DNA of 29,208 nucleotides from a virus, in the IMG/VR virus record IMGVR_UViG_3300030385_000202, positions 1-29,208 of that record; one strand, given 5' to 3'. Each line of letters begins with the position of its first letter. Within the stretch, counting starts at the first letter, position 1. The notes below the pieces were generated by a model. That model did not search any database. It saw only the letters and a program-made list of their open reading frames with translations, and was not told where the DNA came from. The translations under genes and the position numbers were made by a program. Of this stretch, positions 1,156 through 29,208 are shown in pieces.

Positions 1156-1694
1156 TGGACACGGCTAATATAGAAAGGTATTTAAACTCTTTTGGTAAAC
1201 AAGTAGTCAATAGAGCTAAGGGCAACTTGCAAAGGGCAGGAAAGGGTGGTAAGCTAGAAGATTCAATTAAGTTTGAAGTAATAACTGATGCAGATGGCTT
1301 TACAGTACAATTCTATATGTCAAGTTATGGAGCTTTTGTAGATAAAGGAGTTTCAGGAACGCAAAAGAAAAGAACCTTTAAAAACTATAAGAACAAAGTT
1401 ATAAAAAGCCCTTACAGTTACAAGAAGTCTAAAGGACATTCACAACCTCCTAGTAGTGCTTTAGATAAGTGGGTAATAAAGAAAGGTATAGCCCCTAGAG
1501 ATGCAAGTGGTAGGTTTATGAAAAGAAAGACTATAACATTCTTAATTGCTAGAAGCATAGGGCGTAAAGGAATACAAGGAATAAGTTTCTTTCAAAAGCC
1601 TTTGATGTTAGGACTTAAACAATTCGGAAGTGAATTACTAGGTAATGTTAAACAAGATATAATAGATACTTTAAATCAAACAACAGTAAACTAA
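1155..1694 (+). CDS. HK97 gp10-like tail completion protein (179 aa)
   Basis: A basic protein of 179 residues. The segment YGAFVDKGVSG near residues 58-68 is typical of the HK97 gp10-like tail-component family, in which a short beta strand is followed by an (F/Y)(V)(D/E)xG turn; the preceding lines read as a long N-terminal helix plus beta strand. Family members join the tail to the connector. A Lys/Arg-rich loop follows (residues 71-97), then a long C-terminal helix. The start overlaps the preceding stop and its own stop overlaps the next start (TAATG), so expression is coupled through the tail operon. The assignment rests on one motif plus position. Confidence 0.6.
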   Translation: MDTANIERYLNSFGKQVVNRAKGNLQRAGKGGKLEDSIKFEVITDADGFTVQFYMSSYGAFVDKGVSGTQKKRTFKNYKNKVIKSPYSYKKSKGHSQPPSSALDKWVIKKGIAPRDASGRFMKRKTITFLIARSIGRKGIQGISFFQKPLMLGLKQFGSELLGNVKQDIIDTLNQTTVN

Positions 1695-3103
1695 TGGCAA
1701 CAATAATAGAACAAGAACCTTTATATGATATATTACCTGTAGGACAGCAAGTAATGTTTTCAGTATCTAACAATACTATAGTAGCAAATCAATTACAAGT
1801 AAAATTTGTAGCTGAAATACATATAAGTAATACACCTATAGTCTTATCAACTTCAACTGATTTAATAGCTACTTTAAAAACTACACCAAATAATAAAGGA
1901 GTAGGTATTTTTGATTTAAGACCAATATTAGAAAGCTATGTAAGTCCTGATTATTTAGGTTGGACAGATGGTTCAAATGGTAGTGAATATAAAGGTACAC
2001 AATTCTCAGGCAATAATGCTAATGCTATCCACTTAATTGATAAGTATGCAAGAAGTGAAAATGGACTTAGATATTTTGCTATTCGATTCTCAGTAGATTA
2101 TATAGATGTTACTACACTCCAACCTGTATTAGGTGCAGACATTAGAGATAGTGAGGGGGTTAGGTTCTTTAATGGAGTAATACAATATGATGATACACTT
2201 AATGTATTTAATAATGACTATGGATATGATATAACTAACTTCTACTTTACAGGAACTACTAAGTCGTTTCTTACTAATGCACCTACTACACAATACGCAC
2301 AACTAACTGATTACGGTACTTTGCCTTTCTTTAATTTAACAAGTTTAGATATTGTTGATGTTATATTTACATTCAAAGATAGTGCAGGTTCTACGTTAGG
2401 AAGTGAAACTGTTATACAAAATACTGCTAATGGTGGTGCTTTGCCTATTACATCAGATACTAGCAATCAGTTACTTTACTTAGGTGCTTTTCCTGCCAAC
2501 TTAGATAATTGGAGTACAGTATGGGATACACACAAAGCAAATGTAGCGTATTATACAGTAGCTGCATTTGATAGTACAGTTGGACACGGTGGTAGAATAA
2601 GTGAGTTTTATACCATCAATATTATCTGTCCTGCAAATAGTAGTAATCAAAAAGGATTTGAAGGTATAAGACTTACTTGGTTAAATCAATGGGGTGCTTG
2701 GGATTACTATACTTTTAATATGAAGTCAGTTAAATCACTTACAACTAATAAAGCAACTTATACTCAGCAGAGTGGAACTTGGAATAGTGATACATTTAGA
2801 ATTAATGGATATAAAGGTGGTGAGAAAAACTTTAGAGTAAATTCAACTGAAAAAATAAAGATGAATACTGACTTTGTAGATGAAGCAACAGGAGTATGGT
2901 TTGAAGAACTTATTAATAGTCCTGAAGTATATGTATTAAACGGATTTCAAGCTGATGGTGGATTTTCAGCTTTAAATACTTATGTAGAACCTGTAAGACT
3001 TACAACTTCAAGCTACACTAGAAAGACAATAGCAAATGACAAGTTAATGCAATATACTTTTGAAGTAGAAAAAAGTAAAATGAAAAGAACACAATCTGTA
3101 TAA
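1694..3103 (+). CDS. Large distal-tail structural protein (469 aa)
   Basis: A 469-residue protein rich in Asn, Thr, Tyr and Phe and beta-strand-like throughout, without signal peptide or membrane segment. Size and composition are those of a phage tail-tip or distal tail protein. I recognise the overall type from Bacteroidetes siphophages, where it precedes an even larger tail protein, but see no named domain. Stop and start codons overlap with both neighbours (TAATG at each junction), placing it in a translationally coupled unit with the gene at 3103. The role as distal tail or baseplate component is inferred. Confidence 0.6.
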   Translation: MATIIEQEPLYDILPVGQQVMFSVSNNTIVANQLQVKFVAEIHISNTPIVLSTSTDLIATLKTTPNNKGVGIFDLRPILESYVSPDYLGWTDGSNGSEYKGTQFSGNNANAIHLIDKYARSENGLRYFAIRFSVDYIDVTTLQPVLGADIRDSEGVRFFNGVIQYDDTLNVFNNDYGYDITNFYFTGTTKSFLTNAPTTQYAQLTDYGTLPFFNLTSLDIVDVIFTFKDSAGSTLGSETVIQNTANGGALPITSDTSNQLLYLGAFPANLDNWSTVWDTHKANVAYYTVAAFDSTVGHGGRISEFYTINIICPANSSNQKGFEGIRLTWLNQWGAWDYYTFNMKSVKSLTTNKATYTQQSGTWNSDTFRINGYKGGEKNFRVNSTEKIKMNTDFVDEATGVWFEELINSPEVYVLNGFQADGGFSALNTYVEPVRLTTSSYTRKTIANDKLMQYTFEVEKSKMKRTQSV

Positions 3104-5871
3104 TGAGTACACAACTAATATTATATCCACAAAACTATCAGGGCTTTAATAGTATATCTTTGCCTGTATTTAATGAATACATAGTTAATGGTATTGACTT
3201 TATAGGATTAAGCTCTACAACTTATTATACCACTACAGCAGGCTATCCTTCAGAAGATGCTATTATAAATTCACCGCCTTCAATAGTTAATACTTGGTAT
3301 AGATATAGTACATCAGGTAGCCCGTGGGGTGGAGTAGCTCCACCAATAGCAGTTGGAACAAATTTAGTATTATTTTACAATGGTGGTACTAATGGACATA
3401 CAGGCGTTTATCAGAAGATGTCATCTTTAACTGTTGGACTTAGTTATGATATAACTATTAATCTTACTCCTGCTGCTTCAGGAATAGTAGCTTTAGAAAT
3501 ATGGACAGGAACAGTATTACAATCTAACTTTTTATTTAGTTCTAATGTTTCACAAATAACTGCAACTTTTACAGCAAATTCTCCTAATGATATTTTTCTA
3601 ATAGACTATGAAGGTACTGCTGCACTTTTAACTATAGCTGATATATCAATAACAGAAAGTAGTCAAACCCCTTCAGGAGTATTTACTGAATTGCAAGACG
3701 GACAAGTTATTTGCGACTTATACCAAGAAGAAGATATACCTTTAACCTTAAGTGTTGATGAATTTAAAAATGTAGCTGAAAAAGTACAGTCATATTCTAA
3801 AGACTTTAATTTACCTGCTACTAAAAGAAACAATAAAATATTTGATAGTATATTTGAAGTAACTAGAACTGATACAGGTTTTAATTTCAACCCTTATGTT
3901 AAGACTAAGTGCGTATTAAAACAAGATGGATATATTCTCTTTGATGGCTATTTAAGACTTATAGATATTAAAGACAAAGAAGATGAAATAAGTTATGATG
4001 TCAATTTGTATTCAGAAGTAATAGCTTTAGCAGATACTTTAAAAGACAAGACATTTAGAGATTTATATTTTACAGAATTAGCACACGAATATAATAAGAC
4101 ACAAATTAAATATAGTTGGAATGACGCAGGTACAGGAATAACTTATACAAATTCAGGCACTTCAGGATTTAGAGATGCGTATAATACAGTAAAATACCCT
4201 TTTGTAGATTGGACAGGAAATATACCTATAACTACAAACACAAATACATCTTCAGGACCAACACCAAACAACCCTGAACTGCTTACTTTAGAACAAGCGT
4301 TTAGACCTTTTATTAATATCAAATACATAATAGATAGAATATTTCAAGACACTCCTTTTACTTTTACTTCAGATTTCTTTAATACTACTGACTTTGGCAA
4401 GTTATATATGGACTTTAATTGGGGTTCTAACGATAGCAGTACAGAACCTACTTCTGCGACTTATAATACACTTGCCCCTGATAGTGACCCCCAAGTATAT
4501 TCAGATACTTCTTGGAAGAATTTTCATTTATATGTGAATAGTTTATATAATTTTTCTGCTGATTTAGGATGGGATACCACAAATTATAGATTTGAAGCTG
4601 CATTAAATAATACGCAATACAATATTGATTATGAACTTAGTTTTAGGTGGAGTGGTCCCGGATATGATAAAGGTCTTTATTTTGAATGGGTACATAAAAA
4701 TAGTGGCGGAACAATATTAAATACTTTTGACCCTGCTTTTAGCATTATAGCAGACTATCCTACTTTTATAGGTAATTTTTCAGTACTGTTACAAGCAGGA
4801 GATACTTTACAAGCAAGATTTTATTCAACATCTGCTGCTCCTGCCAATGAATCATATAGACAAACGAGTATTTTTGCTCCTGTATCTACTGTTATTGCTT
4901 CAATAGGTAGTGGTCTTGCAACAACTAATACACTTTTACAAAACCTTAGAGGTGAGCTAGGACAATGGGATTTTTTAAAAGGATTAATGACAATGTTTAA
5001 CTTAGTTACTATGCCTGACCCTGACAATCCTAATAACATCTTGATAGAACCTTACTCAGATGTATTTATAACAAATACAGCAGGAACTAATTTAGCTTCA
5101 AGAAGTATTCAGCACGATTGGACTGACAAAGTTGATGTATCAGAAATGGAGCTTACACCACTTACAGACTTAAACAAAAAGACAGTATTTAAGTTTGTTG
5201 AAGATGATGATGACTATGCTTTTAATGTTTATAAAAATTCAGTAGGTGGGTTCTTATACGGAAGTAAAAATTATGATGCTTCAGGGTTTACTATATTAGA
5301 AGGTGAAGATGAAATAATTGCAGAACCATTTGCAGCTACAATACCAAAGCCTTTAGACGCTTTATTTCCTAATTTTATTATACCTTCAATTTATTCTATG
5401 AATGATGATGGTTCTACTGAAGGCTTTGAGAATAGTCCTAGAATAATGTATAACAACGGAATTAAAGATACAGGAATTACTTATTACATTCCTGAACAGA
5501 ATGGATTGTCTAGTGAAAATCAAGAGGACTTTTTACAATTTAGTCATTTAACAGATATACCTACTATTGTAAGTACACCACCTGTTGATGCTGATACTAG
5601 AGATTTTCATTTTGGAGAATGTCAATTAATACAACCTATTGGTGATGCTACTGTAAATAATTTATACAGTATATATTGGGAGCCTTATTATGATGAACTA
5701 TATAATGCAGATACTAGAATTATGACTTTAAAAGTAAACCTAAGTCCTGCTGACATAAACACATTCAAGTTTAATGATAAGGTGTTTATCAAAAATAGAG
5801 TGTTCAGAGTAAACAAAATAGACTACAAACCTAATGACTTAGCAACAGTTGAATTTATACTTATACCATAA
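3103..5871 (+). CDS. Tail hub / receptor-binding-region protein (922 aa)
   Basis: The largest protein of the window, 922 residues. The first 200 or so residues form a Gly/Ser/Thr-rich beta region that looks like a carbohydrate-binding or jelly-roll module. From about residue 200 a hub-like portion begins (QEEDIPLTLSVDEFKNVAEK, then FNLPATKRNNKIFDSIFEV), a stretch I associate with the central tail protein of Bacteroidetes phages. The C-terminal end (KVFIKNRVFRVNKIDYKPND) resembles the end of tail hub proteins, where it packs on the tail tube. The start overlaps the previous stop and the stop overlaps the next start. The hub role is probable; receptor binding by the N-terminal module is speculation. 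Confidence 0.6.
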   Translation: MSTQLILYPQNYQGFNSISLPVFNEYIVNGIDFIGLSSTTYYTTTAGYPSEDAIINSPPSIVNTWYRYSTSGSPWGGVAPPIAVGTNLVLFYNGGTNGHTGVYQKMSSLTVGLSYDITINLTPAASGIVALEIWTGTVLQSNFLFSSNVSQITATFTANSPNDIFLIDYEGTAALLTIADISITESSQTPSGVFTELQDGQVICDLYQEEDIPLTLSVDEFKNVAEKVQSYSKDFNLPATKRNNKIFDSIFEVTRTDTGFNFNPYVKTKCVLKQDGYILFDGYLRLIDIKDKEDEISYDVNLYSEVIALADTLKDKTFRDLYFTELAHEYNKTQIKYSWNDAGTGITYTNSGTSGFRDAYNTVKYPFVDWTGNIPITTNTNTSSGPTPNNPELLTLEQAFRPFINIKYIIDRIFQDTPFTFTSDFFNTTDFGKLYMDFNWGSNDSSTEPTSATYNTLAPDSDPQVYSDTSWKNFHLYVNSLYNFSADLGWDTTNYRFEAALNNTQYNIDYELSFRWSGPGYDKGLYFEWVHKNSGGTILNTFDPAFSIIADYPTFIGNFSVLLQAGDTLQARFYSTSAAPANESYRQTSIFAPVSTVIASIGSGLATTNTLLQNLRGELGQWDFLKGLMTMFNLVTMPDPDNPNNILIEPYSDVFITNTAGTNLASRSIQHDWTDKVDVSEMELTPLTDLNKKTVFKFVEDDDDYAFNVYKNSVGGFLYGSKNYDASGFTILEGEDEIIAEPFAATIPKPLDALFPNFIIPSIYSMNDDGSTEGFENSPRIMYNNGIKDTGITYYIPEQNGLSSENQEDFLQFSHLTDIPTIVSTPPVDADTRDFHFGECQLIQPIGDATVNNLYSIYWEPYYDELYNADTRIMTLKVNLSPADINTFKFNDKVFIKNRVFRVNKIDYKPNDLATVEFILIP

Positions 5872-6698
5872 TGGACTATAAAAAAGGATTTTCAGTAAAA
5901 CCTGCACGAGTTTCAGCAACAGGTCAAGTATTTTTTACTGATGGAACTAATGAAATGCAACCAAATCAAAAAGAATGTGAAGCATACGGATATACATACA
6001 ACAGAGCTTCAGGTACTTGTAGTACGTTTAGATATAATACTAATTTGAATAAGAATTTTAGTAATATCAATAACACTATTAAAGGTTCAAACAATACTAC
6101 AGAAACAGGAACTAATAACACCTTAATAATGGGTGAAAATAATACTGTAAAAGGAAGGTCAAGGAACAATATAGTAATAGGAAGTAATAATGAAGTAGCA
6201 AACGGTATAAACAATACAACAGTCTTAGGTAACTATGGGATAGCACAAAGGGATGGTGAAATAGTAATTGGTGGTGGTGCATTTGAAGGAACAGGTGTAG
6301 GATATGGACAAAGCTCTACAATGTCTTTATCAGGTACTACAACAGATGCTACTCAAACTAATTTAAAAGTAAACAGTAGCAGTACAAATACAATAATAGC
6401 TAGAAGTTCTACAAGTTCTTTTCAAGGCTTTGAAGCTAATGTAATTGGAGTAAGGACAGGTGGTAGTGCAGGTAGTGGTGCAGCAAATGATAGAATATTA
6501 TTAAGAGCAACAGGGATTATTTATCTTAAAGACTCACAAGAATCAGTTGCAACTTTAGGTAGTTTTGGAACAGTAGCAGGGTGGACAACAGCTATAGATT
6601 TTTCAAGTACAAATGATATGCACCTATCAGTAACAGGTGCAGCAGATATGAATATAAGTTGGAGTGCTACACTTCATCTTTACGAAATAAAAATATAA
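5871..6698 (+). CDS. Tail fibre-like beta-helix protein with NNT repeats (275 aa)
   Basis: A 275-residue protein. Residues about 57-120 contain repeated NNT/NNxxxxG units (NNTIKGSNN, TNNTLIMGENNTVKG, NNIVIGSNNEVANGINNTTV), a pattern seen in left-handed beta-rolls of YadA/Hep_Hag type and in phage fibre shafts. A Gly/Ser-rich middle and a compact C-terminal domain ending in WSATLHLYEIKI follow, which could be the receptor-facing tip. The N-terminus carries a short Cys-containing segment (CEAYGYTYNRASGTC). It lies between the hub and the tape measure gene, a plausible fibre position. Fibre identity is inferred from the repeats and location. Confidence 0.55.
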   Translation: MDYKKGFSVKPARVSATGQVFFTDGTNEMQPNQKECEAYGYTYNRASGTCSTFRYNTNLNKNFSNINNTIKGSNNTTETGTNNTLIMGENNTVKGRSRNNIVIGSNNEVANGINNTTVLGNYGIAQRDGEIVIGGGAFEGTGVGYGQSSTMSLSGTTTDATQTNLKVNSSSTNTIIARSSTSSFQGFEANVIGVRTGGSAGSGAANDRILLRATGIIYLKDSQESVATLGSFGTVAGWTTAIDFSSTNDMHLSVTGAADMNISWSATLHLYEIKI

Positions 6699-6701
6699 GT
6701 T

Positions 6702-8324
6702 ATGGCAGAGAAAATAATAATAGAAGCAGAAGTTAAATCAAATATAGGTGAAGTATCTAAAGATGCATCAAGTGCAGCAGGTGAATTTCAAGTTATGGGC
6801 GTTTCTTTAAATGGAGTTAAGGCAGCCTTTGGGAAAATAATACCAACTGCTAAAGCTATGTTCGGTACTATTAAAGCAGGAATTATAAGCACAGGGATTG
6901 GTGCTTTATTAATTGCAGTAGTATCTTTATTCTCTTACTTTAAAAATACACAGAAGGGTGCTGAAATGCTAGAGAGAGCTATGGCAGGAATGGGTGCAGT
7001 CATTGGTGAGATTTCTGACCTATTTGCTAAAGTAGGCGAAGTAATAGTAGGGGCTTTTTCAGACCCTCAACAAGCTATCAAAGATTTATGGGAAGCGCTA
7101 AAGAAAAACCTAATGAATAGGGTAACAGGAGTTATAGACCAATTCAAAGCACTAGGGAAAGTTATTAAGTCTGCTTTAAGTATGGATTGGGATGGTGTAA
7201 CAGAAGGAGCTAAAGAATATGGTCAAGCCTTAGTACAAGTGACTACAGGTATGGACGTAGAACAACAAAAAAAGTTCGCTGAGGGGTTAAAGAATATAGC
7301 AAAAGAAATGAATGAAGATGTGAATGCTGCTATGAGATTGAAAGGAGTAATGCAAGATATAAGACGGGAAGAAATGGAATTTACAAAAGTTCAAGCACAG
7401 ACTAGGCAAGATGTTGCAAAGGCTCGACTATTAGCTATGGACGAAAGTAAAACTCAGGAAGAAAGACTAGAAGCTATTAATGAGGTTATGAAGAAAGAAC
7501 TAGAAATGACTGCTAACATAATAGAAATGCAGAAGAAGAAAGTAGCTGCTAAAAGAGAAGAACTAACGTTAAATAAAACTATGATAGAAGATGAAGAAGA
7601 ATTAGCTGCTTTAGAGGTTGAGCTAATTAATCTTACTACTCAATCTACTATGACACAAAAAAGATTAATGCTTGAAGTAGAAACTTTAAATAACGAAATA
7701 GCAGCAAAACAAAAAGCAAAACAAAAAGAAATAGCTGATGCTGAAGCAAAAGCACTTAAAGAAATAGCTGATGCTAAAGAAAAAGCTGCAAAAGATAAAA
7801 AAGCAGCAGATAAAAAAGCAGCAGATGAAGAAATTGCTGAAGCAAAAAGAGTAGCTACTGAGAAAATGACAATATTAAAAGCCGAGCAAGATTTTAAGAA
7901 AGCTACAATAGATAAAACATTTGGTGCAGCAGCAGCTATGGCAGGAGAAAATGTCGCCTTATCTAAAGGAGTGGCAGCAGCACAAGTTATATATAATACG
8001 CAGCAAGGAATAATGGCAGCTATGGGGGCAACTTCTATAGCTGATAAGTTATTGCCTTATCCTTTAAGACTTGCCAATGCTATTGCTACAGGAGTTATGG
8101 GTGCAGCAGCACTATCTACTATTATGTCTACAAATCCTACAGGCGGAGTAAATAATCCCCCTCCTAGTACTACAGGTGGAACTCCTGCACCTGAAATGAT
8201 GTCAGGAGCATTTACTTTAAGTGGTGGGGTAGCACCTGAACCTGTACAGGCTTATGTAGTTACAGATGATATGACTAACAATCAAAACAAACTAGCTATT
8301 ATAAGACGTAGAGCTACAATATAA
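6702..8324 (+). CDS. Tape measure protein (540 aa)
   Basis: A 540-residue protein with the layout of a short tape measure. It has an alpha-helical N-terminus, a Gly/Ala/Ile-rich hydrophobic segment near residues 55-80 (IKAGIISTGIGALLIAVVSL), a long Lys/Glu/Ala coiled coil through about residues 200-400, another hydrophobic stretch near 420-470, and a Pro/Gly/Thr-rich tail. Tape measure proteins fill the tail tube during assembly and set its length. Using the usual scaling of about 0.15 nm per residue, this length would predict a tail of roughly 80 nm. The coiled coil contains short DNA repeats (see 7728-7823). Its position after the fibre and before the head genes is unusual. Confidence 0.8.
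   Translation: MAEKIIIEAEVKSNIGEVSKDASSAAGEFQVMGVSLNGVKAAFGKIIPTAKAMFGTIKAGIISTGIGALLIAVVSLFSYFKNTQKGAEMLERAMAGMGAVIGEISDLFAKVGEVIVGAFSDPQQAIKDLWEALKKNLMNRVTGVIDQFKALGKVIKSALSMDWDGVTEGAKEYGQALVQVTTGMDVEQQKKFAEGLKNIAKEMNEDVNAAMRLKGVMQDIRREEMEFTKVQAQTRQDVAKARLLAMDESKTQEERLEAINEVMKKELEMTANIIEMQKKKVAAKREELTLNKTMIEDEEELAALEVELINLTTQSTMTQKRLMLEVETLNNEIAAKQKAKQKEIADAEAKALKEIADAKEKAAKDKKAADKKAADEEIAEAKRVATEKMTILKAEQDFKKATIDKTFGAAAAMAGENVALSKGVAAAQVIYNTQQGIMAAMGATSIADKLLPYPLRLANAIATGVMGAAALSTIMSTNPTGGVNNPPPSTTGGTPAPEMMSGAFTLSGGVAPEPVQAYVVTDDMTNNQNKLAIIRRRATI
7728..7823 (+). repeat. Short direct repeats inside the tape measure coiled coil
   Basis: GAAATAGCTGATGCT occurs at 7728-7742 and 7761-7775. GATAAAAAAGCAGCA is tandemly duplicated at 7794-7808 and 7809-7823, encoding the repeated K-K-A-A-D units. 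Such in-frame repeats can expand or contract and change tape measure length. Confidence 0.75.
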
Positions 8325-22343: not shown

Positions 22344-22914
22344 TATATATGTAGAAATATCAAAGCTAAGTTCTAAGTTCAGGACTATGTGCTATGGACT
22401 TACAAAAGACAAAGTAGCTATTGATGATGCGGTGCAGGAGTTGATGATTTATTTTATGCAGATGAATCCTGAAACATTAAAGACAATTTGGGAAAAAGAC
22501 AGAACTGAAGGAATTATAAGATATGGTGCAGTAGTTTTAAGACGTGCTTTAACAAGTACAAGAAGTCCTTTTTATTATCAGTACAAGAAATACTACACAC
22601 ATATTGACGGCTTTAGCTATAATTGCAGTAAAACTTTTAGTAATGATGAAGTTGCGCATAATGTTGCTAATAATAAAAATATATCAAATCTTCCTAATGA
22701 AGAAGTAGATAATTACCAATGGACAAAGCTAGAAGAAATTGACAAAGTGTTAGACGGCTTGTATTGGTACGATAAGAAAATATTTGAGTTGTATTATGAG
22801 GGCAATACGCTCGATTCACTCGCAAAGAAAACAGGCATAAGTCGTAACAGCTTATTCACTACAATAGACAAAGTTAGAGCAATACTTAAAAAAGAATTAA
22901 ATGAAGATAACTAA
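22336..22914 (+). CDS. Sigma-like transcription factor (192 aa)
   Basis: A 192-residue protein built like a small sigma factor. Residues about 26-45 (KVAIDDAVQELMIYFMQMN) correspond to the core-binding helix of sigma region 2, and the following segment (IIRYGAVVLRRALTSTRSPF) reads like the DNA-melting part. Residues about 145-186 (YDKKIFELYYEGNTLDSLAK, then ISRNSLFTTIDKVRAILKK) form a region-4-type HTH. It is placed at the end of the early block, just before the Mom-like genes and the first late promoter motif (24702), as expected for a middle-to-late switch. It is coupled to both neighbours by overlap. Sigma activity is inferred, not proven. Confidence 0.65.
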   Translation: MTDIYVEISKLSSKFRTMCYGLTKDKVAIDDAVQELMIYFMQMNPETLKTIWEKDRTEGIIRYGAVVLRRALTSTRSPFYYQYKKYYTHIDGFSYNCSKTFSNDEVAHNVANNKNISNLPNEEVDNYQWTKLEEIDKVLDGLYWYDKKIFELYYEGNTLDSLAKKTGISRNSLFTTIDKVRAILKKELNEDN

Positions 22915-23858
22915 TGAGCGTAAAAGATATATATACAATTAAGTCAATTAAAAAAGAATTATGCAAAGAATGGCTATTATATAAACACTATGCAAAAAGA
23001 ACTCCTAGTATATCCTTTTGTTTTGGATTGTTTAAAGACAATATCTTAGTGGGAGTTATTACTTTTGGAATGCCACCAAGCTCAACATTGGCAGCTTCAA
23101 TAGGTGGAGAAAAAAATAAAAGCATAGTTTTAGAATTAAACAGGTTGGTTGCAAATGATGGATTAGATAAAAACGCTTTAAGTTATTTTGTAAGTTGCAG
23201 CATCAATAAAATACCAAAGCCAAAAATTATAGTATCATTTGCTGACAATAATATGAATCATAGTGGATATATATATCAAGCAACTAATTTCATATATACA
23301 GGACAAACTTCAAATGACAGTATGTATATAGACAAAGACGGCAAAGAGTTTCATTTTAGAAACTTAGGACACTATCAGAAAAATAATAGACTAAATGTTT
23401 CACTAATCAAAAGAAGATTAAATGAAGATAAAATTGATAAAATTGAGATAGCTAACTACCTTAGAGATAATAAGGGAGAATGTACTGCTAAAAAATTAGA
23501 TGAAATATTTGGCTATAAAGATACTGCTGCCCATTGGTTCAGGACTGATGGTGGGTTTAGTTTTGCAAATATTGATGATTGGAAAAGATTAAAAAAAATA
23601 CTAAATTTAGATAATAAGTATGATAACATAATGCTAGACTTTGAATGGGTTGCAGATGTAAAAGAAATAATAAAGAAGTTAGAATTAAAAAAAGTAGAGA
23701 TATTGCCTAAAAATAGATATGTATTTGTTTCAGCTAATAAGAAAGAGAAAAAAGAAATATTATCTAATATGAAACTTACACCCTTACCCTATCCAAAAGG
23801 AATAAATAAAAGATATGATGCAAGTTATAAACCCCTTATACAAAAAGAATTATTTTGA
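22914..23858 (+). CDS. Mom-family DNA modification protein A, with C-terminal extension (314 aa)
   Basis: A 314-residue protein whose first 150 residues carry the Mom/GNAT-type signature: HY at 25-26, VGVITFG at 46-52, ELNRL at 74-78, SFAD at 108-111 and GYIYQATNF at 118-126. Mu Mom converts adenine in DNA to a modified form that resists restriction, using acetyl-CoA. Residues about 150-314 form an extra basic region with HTH-like stretches (ADKLDEIFGYKD-like and GGFSFANIDDWKRLKKIL), perhaps for DNA recognition. The start overlaps the sigma-like gene (TAATG) and the stop overlaps a TTG-started Cys-rich gene. It is the first and longest of three paralogues. Confidence 0.75.
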   Translation: MSVKDIYTIKSIKKELCKEWLLYKHYAKRTPSISFCFGLFKDNILVGVITFGMPPSSTLAASIGGEKNKSIVLELNRLVANDGLDKNALSYFVSCSINKIPKPKIIVSFADNNMNHSGYIYQATNFIYTGQTSNDSMYIDKDGKEFHFRNLGHYQKNNRLNVSLIKRRLNEDKIDKIEIANYLRDNKGECTAKKLDEIFGYKDTAAHWFRTDGGFSFANIDDWKRLKKILNLDNKYDNIMLDFEWVADVKEIIKKLELKKVEILPKNRYVFVSANKKEKKEILSNMKLTPLPYPKGINKRYDASYKPLIQKELF

Positions 23859-24732: not shown

Positions 24733-25380
24733 ATGCGACAACAACTTAAGATATACAAAGTAAAGGGAAACCCTCTCAATCCTAGACTTATTAAAAATGA
24801 TAAATTTAAAAAGCTAGTCAATAGTATCATCAGTATTCCTGCATTTATGAAATTAAGACCTATTATACTTGATGAGGACTTTATGGTAATAGGAGGAAAT
24901 ATGAGATTGAAAGCTCACCACCACTTGAATAGAAAAGAAATTTGGACTGATATGTTTACTCAAGCTGACTGTGATGAAATGAATAATATTGCACTAGCTG
25001 AAGAAAGAGAAACAAAAACTTATTTAGAATATTGTAATGAGATAACAATAAAAGATAATGTTAGTGCAGGAGAATGGGAGTATGATATGTTAGCTAATGA
25101 ATGGGATAGCGTTCAACTTAATGACTTTGGTTTAGATTTATGGCAGAATGAAGATGATATTGAAACAAGTGATGAGTTTAGTTTACCTGATGGAGAGAAA
25201 GGAAATTTAGAACAAATAACATACACACTAAGTAGTGAGCAGAGTAATATAATAAAAGAAGCAGTACAAGAAATAAAACATACTGAAGAATATAAGTATA
25301 TAGAAACATTTGGGAATGAAAATAGTAATGGAAACGCTTTATATTTATTAATAACTGAATGGAGAAAAACGAACAGCTAA
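24733..25380 (+). CDS. ParB-like N-domain protein (215 aa)
   Basis: A 215-residue protein. The N-terminal half matches a ParB/Srx-type fold: NPR at residues 16-18, a following helix (FKKLVNSIISIPAFMK), and LDEDFMVIGGNMRLKAHHHL near 47-65 containing the GGNMR box that ParB-like domains use for nucleotide contacts. There is no HTH domain and no fused methylase, though ParB-like domains in phages are often fused to or paired with DNA-modifying enzymes. The C-terminal half is acidic. It overlaps the next Mom-like gene by 22 bases, so they are likely to work together. Partition function is unlikely without a parA. Confidence 0.7.
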   Translation: MRQQLKIYKVKGNPLNPRLIKNDKFKKLVNSIISIPAFMKLRPIILDEDFMVIGGNMRLKAHHHLNRKEIWTDMFTQADCDEMNNIALAEERETKTYLEYCNEITIKDNVSAGEWEYDMLANEWDSVQLNDFGLDLWQNEDDIETSDEFSLPDGEKGNLEQITYTLSSEQSNIIKEAVQEIKHTEEYKYIETFGNENSNGNALYLLITEWRKTNS

Positions 25381-26057
25381 AAGACATAACAGTAAAGATT
25401 ATAGATAGTAAAACAGCAAAAAGATATACTATTGAAAATCATTATATGAAAACTTTTCCAATACCGAAAGTTTGTTTTGGAGTTTTCTATAATAAATTAT
25501 TAAGAGGTGTTATAACATTTGGACTAAGTCCTAGCACCGAGCAAAAAGTAAAAAAGATAGTTCCTAAAATTAATGAGAATGAATTTATCGAAATGCAAAG
25601 AATGAACCTATCAGATGTTTTAGGACATAATGCAGAAAGTTATGTATTAGGAAAAATCTATAAACTATTCAAAGACAATACTAAAGTGAAACTACTAATA
25701 ACACACGCAGGGGGATGTAAGAATGATTGCGGTATTGTTTATCAGGCTAGTAGTTGGTTGTATTTTGGGAAAGAAGTATGTAATGATTTTTACCATACAG
25801 TAAAAGGTGAATACAAAAACATAATATCACCAATGCGTTTCGGTAGAGTACCTAGAGAAGTTGTAAAATTAGGAAGCCAAAAAGTAGGTGAGTATTTATT
25901 TGGTGCAGGGAACATAATCAACTCCTTTAGATATTTGTATATTTATCCACTAAATAAAGGAATAAGAAGTTACTTAGAAAAAAAATGTATGGAATATCCT
26001 AAAGATAGTCAGGTGTTTAGAAAAAATCAAGAATGGATAATAGGGGGTGACCAATAG
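25359..26057 (+). CDS. Mom-family DNA modification protein B, divergent (232 aa)
   Basis: A 232-residue Mom-like protein. It has HY at 28-29, GVITFG at 50-55, EMQRM at 78-82 and GIVYQASSW at 125-133. The SFAD line of the other two copies is replaced by ITHAGG (114-119), followed by CKNDC. The loss of the Asp in that motif may change or remove catalysis. The ATG at 25359 overlaps the ParB-like gene. The stop codon lies inside the 48-base tRNA-like element at 26043. The C-terminal region is basic and ends in a short helix. Confidence 0.7.
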   Translation: MEKNEQLKDITVKIIDSKTAKRYTIENHYMKTFPIPKVCFGVFYNKLLRGVITFGLSPSTEQKVKKIVPKINENEFIEMQRMNLSDVLGHNAESYVLGKIYKLFKDNTKVKLLITHAGGCKNDCGIVYQASSWLYFGKEVCNDFYHTVKGEYKNIISPMRFGRVPREVVKLGSQKVGEYLFGAGNIINSFRYLYIYPLNKGIRSYLEKKCMEYPKDSQVFRKNQEWIIGGDQ

Positions 26058-26098: not shown

Positions 26099-26767
26099 AT
26101 GGGAAGAGCAAAAGAAATAAGAGTTAAAGTATTAACAAGTAAGGTGGCTAATGCTTTTGTAAAGAAGCAGCACTACTCAGGAAAGGTTGTTCCTAATAGC
26201 ACTTTACATTTTGGCTGCTTTTTAGATAAACGATTGCACGGAGTAATGAGTTTCGGACCTAGTATAAATAAGAAAGGCACAATTAACTTAGTAGAGGGAA
26301 CGGGTTGGAATGAATTTATAGAATTAAATAGAATGGCTTTTGATGACTTTTTGCCTAAGTATAGTGAAAGCAGATGTATAGCAATTAGTATGAAGTTAAT
26401 AAAGAAAAACGCACCTCATATAAAATGGGTAATTAGTTTTGCAGATGGAACACAATGCGGAGATGGAACAATTTACAGGGCAAGTGGTTTTAAATTAGTA
26501 GGTATTGTAGAGAATACTGCACTAAGAATAAATCCTGTAACTAAAAAACCTATGCACGTTATCCAAGCTCATCATTTAAAAATGAGTAGTGAATTTAGAA
26601 AATGGAAAGCGTATGATGGCTATCAGTTAAAGTATATTTATTTTATTGATAAGAAAATGGAAAGGAATTTAACAAAGCCAATTATACCTTTTAGTGAAAT
26701 AGATAAAATAGGTGCAGGTATGTATAAGGGAGAAAAGATAACATTAAAAGAAAGACAAAATGCGTGA
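26099..26767 (+). CDS. Mom-family DNA modification protein C (222 aa)
   Basis: A 222-residue protein, the copy closest in appearance to classical Mom: QHYSG at 24-28, HGVMSFG at 47-53, ELNRM at 75-79, WVISFADGTQCGDGTIYRAS at 110-129, then GFKLVG. The FADGxxCGxGTIY line is the one I associate with Mom of Mu-like phages. A family role in N6-modification of adenine to resist host restriction is likely. It begins 8 bases after the tRNA-like element, and its stop codon lies inside the tRNA-Gly-like gene. It differs greatly from copies A and B, so it is not a recent duplicate. Confidence 0.8.
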   Translation: MGRAKEIRVKVLTSKVANAFVKKQHYSGKVVPNSTLHFGCFLDKRLHGVMSFGPSINKKGTINLVEGTGWNEFIELNRMAFDDFLPKYSESRCIAISMKLIKKNAPHIKWVISFADGTQCGDGTIYRASGFKLVGIVENTALRINPVTKKPMHVIQAHHLKMSSEFRKWKAYDGYQLKYIYFIDKKMERNLTKPIIPFSEIDKIGAGMYKGEKITLKERQNA

Positions 26768-26851: not shown

Positions 26852-27205
26852 ATGGAACAAAATAGAACACAAATCGCAAAGAAGCAAATGCTGAAAGCAC
26901 TAGAGGGAAGTCTAGGGATAGTAACAACAGCTTTAAAGTCTTGCGACCTATCAAGAACAAACTACTACAAGTGGTTAAAAGAAGATGAAGACTTTGCTCA
27001 GAAAGTAAAAGATGTAGAATTAATAGCTCAGGATTTTGTTAAGTCTAAATTCTATGAATGTATAAAAGATAAAGTACCTTCAGTTGTAATACACGCAGCT
27101 AAAAACATACTAGGTATGAATGAAACCAATAGAGTAGATTTAACTTCAGGTGATGAACCTCTTAACTTACCATTAATAACATTTATCGAAACTGATACTG
27201 AGTAA
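26852..27205 (+). CDS. terS: Terminase small subunit (117 aa)
   Basis: A 117-residue protein. The N-terminal region (KKQMLKALEGSLGIVTTALK, then CDLSRTNYYKWLKEDEDFAQ) is the homeodomain-like HTH of small terminases, residues about 9-50. It is followed by a long helix (KVKDVELIAQDFVKSKFYEC) and a compact end. It recognises phage DNA and stimulates the large subunit during packaging. It lies directly upstream of the large subunit, whose likely start overlaps its last codons. An A-rich leader precedes the ATG; the tRNA-Gly-like gene ends 18 bases upstream. Confidence 0.75.
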   Translation: MEQNRTQIAKKQMLKALEGSLGIVTTALKSCDLSRTNYYKWLKEDEDFAQKVKDVELIAQDFVKSKFYECIKDKVPSVVIHAAKNILGMNETNRVDLTSGDEPLNLPLITFIETDTE

Positions 27206-28394
27206 AAAATACAATCCCTTATTTGATTCTAAGGCTAGATACTTTATTATAACAGGTGGTAGGGGTTCAGGTAAGTCTTTTGCTGTTACAGTCTTTCTAA
27301 CGCTACTTACTATGTCTGAAGGTATTAGAATATTGTTCACAAGATATACTATGACATCAGCACGTCTTTCAATTATACCTGAGTTCTTAGAAAAGATAAG
27401 TCTATTAGGCTATGAAAATGTATTTAGTGTAAACAAGTCAGAGGTTGTAAACTTAAAGAATAAGTCTGACATTCTATTTAGAGGTATTAAGACTTCAGCA
27501 GGAAATCAAACGGCTTCACTTAAATCACTAACAGGTGTATCTACTTGGGTACTTGATGAAGCAGAAGAATTAATAGATGAAAACATCTTTGACACTATTG
27601 ACCTAAGTATAAGAGAAAAGAATGTACAGAATAGAATTATACTTGTCTTGAATCCTGTTACTAAAGACAATTGGATTTATGAAAGGTTCTTTCAGGGAAA
27701 AGGAATTGAAGCAGGTTTTAATGGCGTTAAAGACAATGTATGTTATATACATAGTACCTACCTAGATAATAAAGATAATCTATCTGAGAGCTTCCTATCG
27801 CGTGTAGAAGCTATTAAGCATAATAATTATAAGAAGTACACTCAACAGCTTTTAGGTCAATGGCTAGACAAAGCTGAAGGTGTAGTATTTGAGAATTGGA
27901 GTATTGGAGAATTTAATCCTGATAACTTACAGACTTCTTGTGGTATGGATTTTGGATTTTCTATAGACCCTGACAGTCTTACTGAAGTTGCTATTGATAA
28001 GAAGCATAAGAAGATATACTTAAAAGAACACATATACAGGAATGGTTTAAAAAGTCAAGAGTTAGCAAAGATTGTTTTAGACAAAGTAGATGATAAACTT
28101 ATAATAGCTGATAGTGCAGAACCTAGACTAATAGCCGATTTAAAGCATTTAGGAGTAAACATAAGAGCGGTTAAAAAAGGAACTATTGAAAGCGGTATAA
28201 CTAGAATGCAAGATTATGAATTAATAGTAACACCTGAAAGCACTAACATAGCTAAAGAGTTAAACAATTATTGCTATGCAGATAAAGGTTCTAAGCTGTA
28301 TGTAGATAACTACAACCACGCAATAGACGGAATTAGATATAACATAATATACCATTTAGACAATCCTAATGCAGGTAAGTATTATGTGCAATAA
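27198..28394 (+). CDS. terL: Terminase large subunit, probable CTG start (398 aa)
   Basis: The ATPase and nuclease of DNA packaging, of the PBSX/Terminase_3 type. Walker A is GGRGSGKS at residues 20-27, Walker B is WVLDEAEE at about 117-124, and the nuclease acidic residues are in GMDFGFS (Asp251), IIADSAEP (Asp305) and HAIDGIRY (Asp377), numbered from a start at 27198. Walker A lies upstream of the first ATG in this frame (27312), so the gene must begin earlier. The frame is open only from 27180 (TAA at 27177) and contains no ATG, GTG or TTG before Walker A. A CTG at 27198 (then AGT AAA AAA TAC) gives an N-terminus MSKKYNPLF of typical length; CTG 27192 or ATA 27195 are alternatives. Confidence 0.85.
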   Translation: MSKKYNPLFDSKARYFIITGGRGSGKSFAVTVFLTLLTMSEGIRILFTRYTMTSARLSIIPEFLEKISLLGYENVFSVNKSEVVNLKNKSDILFRGIKTSAGNQTASLKSLTGVSTWVLDEAEELIDENIFDTIDLSIREKNVQNRIILVLNPVTKDNWIYERFFQGKGIEAGFNGVKDNVCYIHSTYLDNKDNLSESFLSRVEAIKHNNYKKYTQQLLGQWLDKAEGVVFENWSIGEFNPDNLQTSCGMDFGFSIDPDSLTEVAIDKKHKKIYLKEHIYRNGLKSQELAKIVLDKVDDKLIIADSAEPRLIADLKHLGVNIRAVKKGTIESGITRMQDYELIVTPESTNIAKELNNYCYADKGSKLYVDNYNHAIDGIRYNIIYHLDNPNAGKYYVQ

Positions 28395-28500: not shown

Positions 28501-29145
28501 ATGAAAGTAAAAATTAAGAAGGCAGGAAAGACTAAGCAGTACAATTTAATAAGTAAGTGGTCAGAAGTTACATTAGAAAAGTGGTTAAAACTTATTGATG
28601 TAGAAACAGATAGTAAAAGCAAAGAAGCGTTAGAAACAATAACAGCTTTGTCAAATATACCTAAACAGTTAGTTAAAGAATTAGGCATACAAGATGTAGC
28701 AGTTATAATGTCTAAGATGGCAGAGTTGCAAACGCAACAAGATAGTAAGTTAAAAAGGATAATAGAAGTAGGCGGTAAAGAGTACGGCTTTCATCCAAGT
28801 TTAGATGAAATTACCTTAGGTGAGTATGCCGATTTGGAAACTATAATAAAGAACGGAATAGAGAATAATATGCCTGAAGTAATGGCAATTCTTTACAGAC
28901 CAATAACAGAGAAAGGAGACAATGGAGTTTATACGATTGCAGCCTATGATGGCAATATAAGTATTAGAGCAGAAGAATTTAAAAAGATGAAAGCAGAACA
29001 AGTACAAAGTGCGCTAGTTTTTTTTTGGAATTTAGGGAAAGAATTGTCAAAGATTTTGCCATCATTTTTGATGGAACGTCTGAACAAGATAGGGAAGGAA
29101 TTGCAAGTGAATCCTTTGCCGAAAAGTGGGGATGGTTCGGAGTGA
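28501..29145 (+). CDS. Tail assembly chaperone, unshifted product (214 aa)
   Basis: A 214-residue protein of the type found just before the tail genes in Bacteroidetes siphophages (WSEVTLEKWLKLID near 20-33, FHPSLDEITLGEYADLE near 97-113, MPEVMAILYRPI near 124-135, VQSALVFFWNLGKELSKIL near 167-185). Its role is to bind the tape measure protein during tail assembly, as gpG does in lambda. The gene ends at TGA 29143-29145. Codon 175 lies in a T9 run, and the -1 frame is open past the stop, so a longer form of 260 residues is expected (see 29018 and 29025). A late promoter motif ends 11 bases upstream of the ATG. Confidence 0.65.
   Translation: MKVKIKKAGKTKQYNLISKWSEVTLEKWLKLIDVETDSKSKEALETITALSNIPKQLVKELGIQDVAVIMSKMAELQTQQDSKLKRIIEVGGKEYGFHPSLDEITLGEYADLETIIKNGIENNMPEVMAILYRPITEKGDNGVYTIAAYDGNISIRAEEFKKMKAEQVQSALVFFWNLGKELSKILPSFLMERLNKIGKELQVNPLPKSGDGSE
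29018..29026 (+). other. T9 slippery site for -1 frameshift
   Basis: Nine T in a row are read in the zero frame as GTT TTT TTT TGG. The heptamer T TTT TTT is a canonical slippery site of X XXY YYZ form. The -1 frame is open from 28983 past the zero-frame stop and through the window join to 111. Ribosomal slippage or RNA polymerase slippage on the run would both join the frames. Confidence 0.7.
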
Positions 29146-29208
29146 TGTACAGATTGACAAATGGTGAGATTGTAAATTTAGAAAGAATAACAGAACTTAG
29201 CTTATTAG
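29025..29208 (+). CDS. Tail assembly chaperone frameshift extension, 5' part (continues at base 1)
   Basis: After a -1 slip, codons run from TTG at 29025 without a stop to the window end, and continue through bases 37-111. The translation is protein-like (FAEKWGWFGVMYRLTNGEIV), and the part after ATG 29145 could alternatively be made as a separate 45-residue peptide (TGATG overlap). The joined product would be about 260 residues, 175 from the zero frame and 85 from this frame. In lambda the equivalent gpGT binds the tail tube protein while its G part binds the tape measure. Confidence 0.7.
   Translation, partial: MEFRERIVKDFAIIFDGTSEQDREGIASESFAEKWGWFGVMYRLTNGEIVNLERITELSLL
29172..29208. repeat. 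Right copy of terminal overlap
   Basis: Same sequence as bases 1-37 with one synonymous mismatch at 29177. See the left copy for interpretation. Confidence 0.9.

Follow-up and report, generated by a model that had tools for sequence, protein, structure and literature searches.

The stretch of DNA analyzed here (the window) is a 29,208 nt phage contig, comprising positions 1 to 29,208 of IMGVR_UViG_3300030385_000202 and read on one strand. The phage is a marine bacteriophage. Towards the end of the window lies a plus-strand gene (28501–29145) that encodes a 214 amino acid (aa) protein belonging to PHROG 32199, a family of unknown function. The protein consists of an N-terminal domain (residues 1–175), common to both predicted products of the gene, and a short tail read in the zero frame, which closes with a TGA at 29143–29145. 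Within the gene is a run of nine Ts (T9; 29018–29026, plus strand), inside which the heptamer T TTT TTT lies in phase at 29019–29025. The -1 frame is open from position 28983. Translation bears out the initial annotation on each of these points: the zero frame ends at 29145, the -1 frame remains open from 28983 through 29208, and the T9 run holds a single canonical heptamer in the right phase. A switch to the -1 frame at T9 would join the N-terminal domain to a C-terminal domain encoded on the same strand by 29025–29208 and, across the contig ends, by positions 1–111. The resulting fusion is 260 aa long and reads, across the run, ...QSALVFF followed by LEFRERIVKDFAIIFDGTSEQDREGIASESFAEKWGWFGVMYRLTNGEIVNLERITELSLLECLTWLSYETDLNESKKVNINDKQ, with the junction at FF-LEFRER.

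The contig is circular or circularly permuted; bases 29172–29208 repeat bases 1–37, with one mismatch. The -1 frame had been proposed to continue, on joining of the ends, to a TAA at 109–111. That stop is indeed reached, and gives the 260 aa product, but not by plain joining: direct concatenation of 29208 to 1 shifts the frame and puts a stop in the -1 frame, and therefore the 37 nt overlap must be collapsed. The reading through the collapsed overlap matches relatives in which the region is uninterrupted, providing independent confirmation of the joined sequence. The mismatch within the overlap (T/C, at window positions 29177 and 6) is synonymous in the -1 frame (AAT/AAC, Asn) and is probably a population variant.

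The T9 gene follows the large terminase gene and opens the tail module. Downstream of it are six ORFs (98–631, 700–1155, 1155–1694, 1694–3103, 3103–5871 and 5871–6698), of which that at 1155–1694 is related to neck/tail-completion proteins. Next in the same module is a plus-strand gene for a 540 aa tape-measure-like protein (6702–8324).

Other features of the window deserve mention. Firstly, upstream of the sequence for its Walker A motif (GGRGSGKS), the large terminase gene (27189–28394) lacks an ATG, GTG or TTG start. The reading frame becomes open a few codons upstream of a CTG, and this CTG overlaps the small terminase gene at its end. The 13 relatives checked also have a CTG there, which suggests conserved initiation at CTG or a further recoding event. 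Secondly, the window contains three Mom-family genes (PF25680, E 5e-34 to 9e-49), at 22914–23858, 25359–26057 and 26099–26767. The function of Mom proteins in phage Mu is DNA base modification. Near these genes, the product of 24733–25380 appears ParB-like by eye and has no Pfam match.

The T run and the -1 relation are retained across homologues

Homologues were gathered by searching viral contigs with the 214 aa protein, the fusion alignment, the fusion of phage P12024L and a distant member as queries; phage records were also searched. The best 80 of more than 500 viral-contig matches were used, and the resulting census comprises at least 106 distinct sequences that have both parts of the gene, including the window. 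Identity to the window across the census homologues ranges from 87% down to less than 30%. The initial annotation had considered that homologues might show no similarity to the -1 segment; instead, the C-part is present in all 106 distinct sequences among the matches listed, in the -1 frame relative to the N-part and directly behind the T run. The run is T9 in 97 of these sequences and T10 in nine, and the T10 members also keep the -1 relation. Within the T9 group, no in-frame length variant was found among the matches listed. Hence the predicted arrangement of a short product plus a -1-extended product, which is that of lambda G/GT, is present in every one of the 106 homologues listed.

T9 is the only run of nine or more Ts in the window. 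By itself it is not beyond chance there (shuffles average 6.4); what exceeds chance is its conservation, in 106/106 homologues among the matches listed.

The census includes the cultured Nonlabens phages P12024L and P12024S, which share ~28% identity with the window. In both, T9 is found at the corresponding position and the -1 frame encodes the second domain. Existing annotation treats their genes 40 and 41 (PHROGs 32199 and 38404) as hypothetical proteins independent of each other, and leaves the interval from T9 to the second ATG blank. Together, genes 40 and 41 make up a single T9 frameshift gene in P12024L (L023, 23946–24640) and in P12024S (L024).

Individual members show peculiarities of their own. 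A further locus (L021/L027), beyond those counted in the census, shows an internal N-domain deletion that disrupts the frame ahead of its T10 run; the local relation at the run is still -1, and the deletion may be an assembly artefact or real. A 29 kb family contig (L103, PBGL02000003.1) sits inside a MAG labelled Euryarchaeota archaeon SP3063, probably as a binning contaminant. The clade carrying the T9–T10 gene is large and consists of mostly marine phages, probably with Bacteroidota hosts.

Coding signal in the -1 frame

Codon-position diversity was computed over 56 relatives without indels. Upstream of the run, diversity is 0.29, 0.20 and 0.43, with position 3 of the zero frame the most variable. 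Just after the run, where the two frames overlap, the values are 0.19, 0.39 and 0.26 (in zero-frame order); that is, position 3 of the -1 frame is highest and position 2 lowest. The same pattern is seen past the zero-frame stop (0.11, 0.35 and 0.18, again in zero-frame order). The nine columns of the run itself are invariant in these 56 relatives.

Start codons tell a similar story. In 69 of 71 relatives, the -1 frame has no start codon (ATG, GTG or TTG) up to and including the run; in 38 of the 71, the interval from the run to the zero-frame stop lacks one. Since start codons are missing before or in the run in 69/71, the -1 frame is not started independently at the run, and independent initiation of the -1 ORF was rejected.

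The initial annotation had judged that the -1 frame reads as protein. The switch in codon periodicity at the run, the existence of single-ORF homologues (see below) and the retention of the -1 domain across the census all agree with that judgment. By these comparative measures, the -1 domain is a real, conserved protein.

Some relatives encode both domains in a single ORF

It had been anticipated that some related phages might encode the fusion in one frame, and such phages were found. Both domains are encoded in one ORF in Flavobacterium phages FPSV-F7, 23T and 2A (293 aa each), laban6-1 (301 aa), Cellulophaga phage Ingeline_1 (301 aa) and Microcystis phage Mea-Yong924-1 (274 aa). The Duneviridae homologues among these (Flavobacterium phages FPSV-F7, 23T, 2A and laban6-1, and Cellulophaga phage Ingeline) are phrog_25418 proteins. 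In a profile-profile comparison, the fused alignment matches the single-ORF homologues with 98.3% probability (E 1.1e-14) over 227 columns that span the junction; the C-parts alone match with 81% probability (E 1.2e-5). At the junction, the single-ORF homologues have only T4–T6, without T TTT TTT. A further database protein, A0A516L611 (258 aa), is a single ORF that matches both the N and C models.

The C-part of Flavobacterium phage 6H was not significant against the family by HMM alone; the similarity emerged from profile-profile comparison. The 6H homologue (L130, 10352–10927) is a 191 aa ORF, while the near-identical FPSV-F7, 23T and 2A have an intact 293 aa ORF. Local sequence differences, with small indels near codon 184, separate 6H from these three phages.

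Two conclusions follow. Firstly, because the -1 relation is kept in all homologues listed and distant relatives encode both domains in one ORF, the frame switch at T9 is, on this comparative evidence, real and not a sequencing error. Secondly, the Duneviridae make the fused form only, which shows that a two-product ratio is not a feature of every family member.

A candidate tail assembly chaperone

The N and C parts were folded separately, and both models are of moderate quality (pLDDT 70.5 and 66.3, respectively). Forty uncharacterized phage proteins match the N model at E<=1e-3; a single further hit, a weak one, carries the annotation tail assembly chaperone (E 1e-2, probability 0.98). The C part is modelled as a small domain made of helices. 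Neither a family match nor a chaperone model was found in Pfam or NCBIfam, and the parts of the gene have no match among solved structures (PDB). Matches to the PHROG categories "tail protein" (phrog_166) and "terminase small subunit" are weak, occur in some members only, and were set aside. The gene is also missing from the VIA-align list, an absence that carries no weight against any function.

The gene had initially been labelled a tail assembly chaperone lying just before the tail genes, as in lambda. Two features fit that role: its two-product design, and its place in the tail module ahead of a tape-measure-like gene. Counting against it are the six genes that come before the tape-measure gene, the lack of a chaperone family model or solved-structure match, and the Duneviridae, in which only the fused form is made. 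The lambda-like placement thus holds to the extent that the gene lies upstream in the tail module, but not as direct adjacency to the tape-measure gene. Elsewhere in the family, the single-ORF homologue of Cellulophaga phage Ingeline lies two genes before the annotated tape-measure gene, and P12024L carries homologous genes in the same order as the window. Weighing these points, we consider it rather likely that the putative two-product T9 gene is a tail assembly chaperone.

Possible RNA polymerase slippage and ribosomal frameshifting at T9

The initial annotation attributed the long form to ribosomal -1 frameshifting at T9, and added that a pure T9 run could also act by transcriptional slippage. 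The evidence that bears on the slipping agent comes from (i) the length and codon phase of the run, (ii) a scan for shorter or interrupted variants, (iii) the frequency of long runs elsewhere in these genomes, and (iv) RNA folding around the site.

The run at the frame junction is longer than eight Ts (T9 or T10) in all 106 sequences listed, and Tn with n>8 has been cited as a condition for polymerase slippage (PMC3711429). The run occurs in all three codon phases (phase 1, n=97; phase 0, n=8; phase 2, n=1), with a length of at least nine in every case. Two Ts beyond the 7 nt heptamer are always present, and they lie on different sides of it in the three phases. On a tree of the N-domain, from which the residues nearest the run were removed, phase 0 requires six changes, at least five of which are forced by well-supported branches. 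On the same tree, T10 arose three times in the close clade, and the length was at least nine each time. Some of the phase changes may be due to recombination, and a need for hydrophobic or aromatic residues could account for part of the surplus Ts in phase 1.

We scanned 2.9 million viral contigs for two variants, T8 and the synonymous TTT TTC, restricting the scan to the close clade's Q-S-A-L-V context. The scan returned five matches, none of which is in the family; the T9 form is found in the same Q-S-A-L-V context at ~70 loci of the family set. A looser wobble-variant pattern proved too unspecific, and gave no family member among the matches listed.

Long runs were counted in 432 kb of other coding sequence from ~100 related phage loci, and compared with synonymous shuffles. 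A runs of at least nine were observed six times, against an expected 39.3 (sd 5.1), and T runs of at least nine were not observed, against an expected 2.4 (sd 1.3); A8 runs are mildly depleted (43 versus 65). In many bacterial genomes, selection against A/T runs sets in at nine nucleotides, and has been read as a sign of slippage (Baranov et al., PMC1088944). The depletion seen here matches that nine-nucleotide onset as well as the n>8 condition for Tn (PMC3711429), hinting that the host RNA polymerase of these phages slips at nine. The avoidance of long runs could partly reflect protection from replication slippage.

No stimulatory RNA fold was detected in the 75 nt downstream of the run (mean z 0.07, with 2% below -2; the calculation excludes pseudoknots, and simple sites may need no fold) or in the 60 nt upstream (mean z 0.17). 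No Rfam family was found in the window.

Because run length is kept, T8 and TTC variants were not found, long runs are avoided and no stimulatory fold is seen, we favor slippage by RNA polymerase rather than by the ribosome as the probable event at T9, as far as sequence comparison can indicate. Of the two mechanisms raised initially, then, the evidence leans to the transcriptional one, supported by run length, phases, depletion and the lack of a fold; the programmed -1-frame extension stands, while the ribosome as slipping agent does not fare as well. The same long form could arise by programmed ribosomal frameshifting to -1 of the classical kind, at U UUU UUU, in the style of lambda G/GT. 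Tailed phages ordinarily use this mechanism (PMC5009743), the gene is a two-product gene of the tail module, and a T TTT TTT heptamer (X XXY YYZ) is in phase in every homologue, so that ribosomal slippage would be possible everywhere. This mechanism is nevertheless rather doubtful, given that the two surplus Ts are always retained on sides that differ by phase, that TTT-TTC and T8 variants were not found in the close-clade context, and that no structure was seen upstream or downstream.

It is very improbable that the gene encodes two separate proteins, with the -1 part translated by termination-reinitiation at the TGATG (29143–29147, plus strand) in which the zero-frame stop overlaps an ATG of the -1 frame. 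TRATG does occur at the zero-frame stop in the window and in many close relatives, and P12024L/S are annotated with two proteins (genes 40 and 41). However, in many relatives the zero-frame stop is not accompanied by an ATG, the positions of the stop vary, and the single-ORF homologues fuse both parts; in addition, the stretch from run to ATG is conserved as -1-frame protein, which re-initiation leaves unexplained. Termination-reinitiation was rejected as the main route because the stop/ATG overlap is not conserved; re-initiation may add an extra short C-terminal product.

Finally, homopolymers are prone to errors and A0A516L611 matches the N and C models in one ORF, but a sequencing or assembly error, or phase variation at the homopolymer (a true T10 or T8 in one continuous frame, as the initial annotation had envisaged), is so improbable, with an identical frame relation in all 106 distinct sequences listed and T10 members that remain at -1, that the census of the frame relation excludes it.

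Discussion

The work above characterizes a phage gene in which two conserved domains are encoded in different frames and joined, it is proposed, by slippage at a run of nine or ten Ts. In the account that we propose, standard expression would generate the 214 aa short form. A fraction of expression events would enter the -1 frame at T9, generating a 260 aa form that lacks the final 39 residues of the short form and carries the 85-residue conserved C-terminal domain in their place. The switch would occur when RNA polymerase slips on T9 and adds one U (T9 to U10), so that the two domains share a frame in some of the mRNAs; slippage of the ribosome to -1 on U UUU UUU may also play a part. By analogy with lambda gpG and gpGT, the mode of action of which is taken from PMC5009743, the short form would coat the tape-measure protein, and the extended form would recruit tail-tube subunits. 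We regard this account as a whole—a two-form gene made by polymerase slippage, and most likely a tail assembly chaperone—as reasonably likely. More tentatively, this clade of phages might set the ratio of two chaperone forms by RNA polymerase slippage at an invariant T9–T10 run, and not by ribosomal frameshifting.

Frameshifting in tail assembly chaperones is well established (PMC5009743) and is a textbook case of ribosomal recoding. Here, the same design is tied to at least nine Ts, a condition for polymerase slippage, in a highly diverged and abundant group of phages that lets one ask whether the same outcome is reached at transcription. If so, the gene would be a transcriptional counterpart of lambda G/GT that is conserved below 30% protein identity. 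Two unannotated families, PHROGs 32199 and 38404, would be explained as parts of one protein. The annotation of P12024L/S would be corrected accordingly; these cultured phages allow the mechanism to be tested, and the one-frame fused homologues provide a natural control. No paper on this gene family, or on slippage in tail assembly chaperones, was found in the literature searched, which suggests that the protein family is new and that, as far as we found, this kind of slip site is unreported for this class of gene.

The closest comparison lies within the family. The phrog_25418 proteins of Duneviridae and the Mea-Yong924 protein have homologous N- and C-domains in the same order as the window gene, and their genes likewise lie upstream of the tape-measure gene where one is annotated. 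They differ in being single ORFs of 274–301 aa, which need no programmed frame switch.

Lambda gpG/gpGT resembles the window gene in having a short and a -1-extended form, made from one tail-module gene upstream of the tape-measure gene. However, there is no detectable similarity in sequence or fold between gpG/gpGT and the window family. Further, the heptamer of lambda-type genes varies, whereas the site in the window family is always a T9–T10 run, with a mechanism that is probably transcriptional. Finally, lambda G/GT lies directly upstream of the tape-measure gene, whereas six genes intervene in the window and two in Ingeline.

Shigella mxiE, Citrobacter rodentium tssM and IS elements provide known cases of transcriptional slippage at T or A runs (PMC4256274, PMC1088944). 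In mxiE (with a run of Us) and tssM, a nucleotide added at a long A/T homopolymer fuses two ORFs and so yields the longer product (PMC1088944, PMC4256274), as is proposed here. The proteins concerned are different, and here the slippage, inferred from sequence, would take place in a phage gene, at a site that is kept across highly diverged phages.
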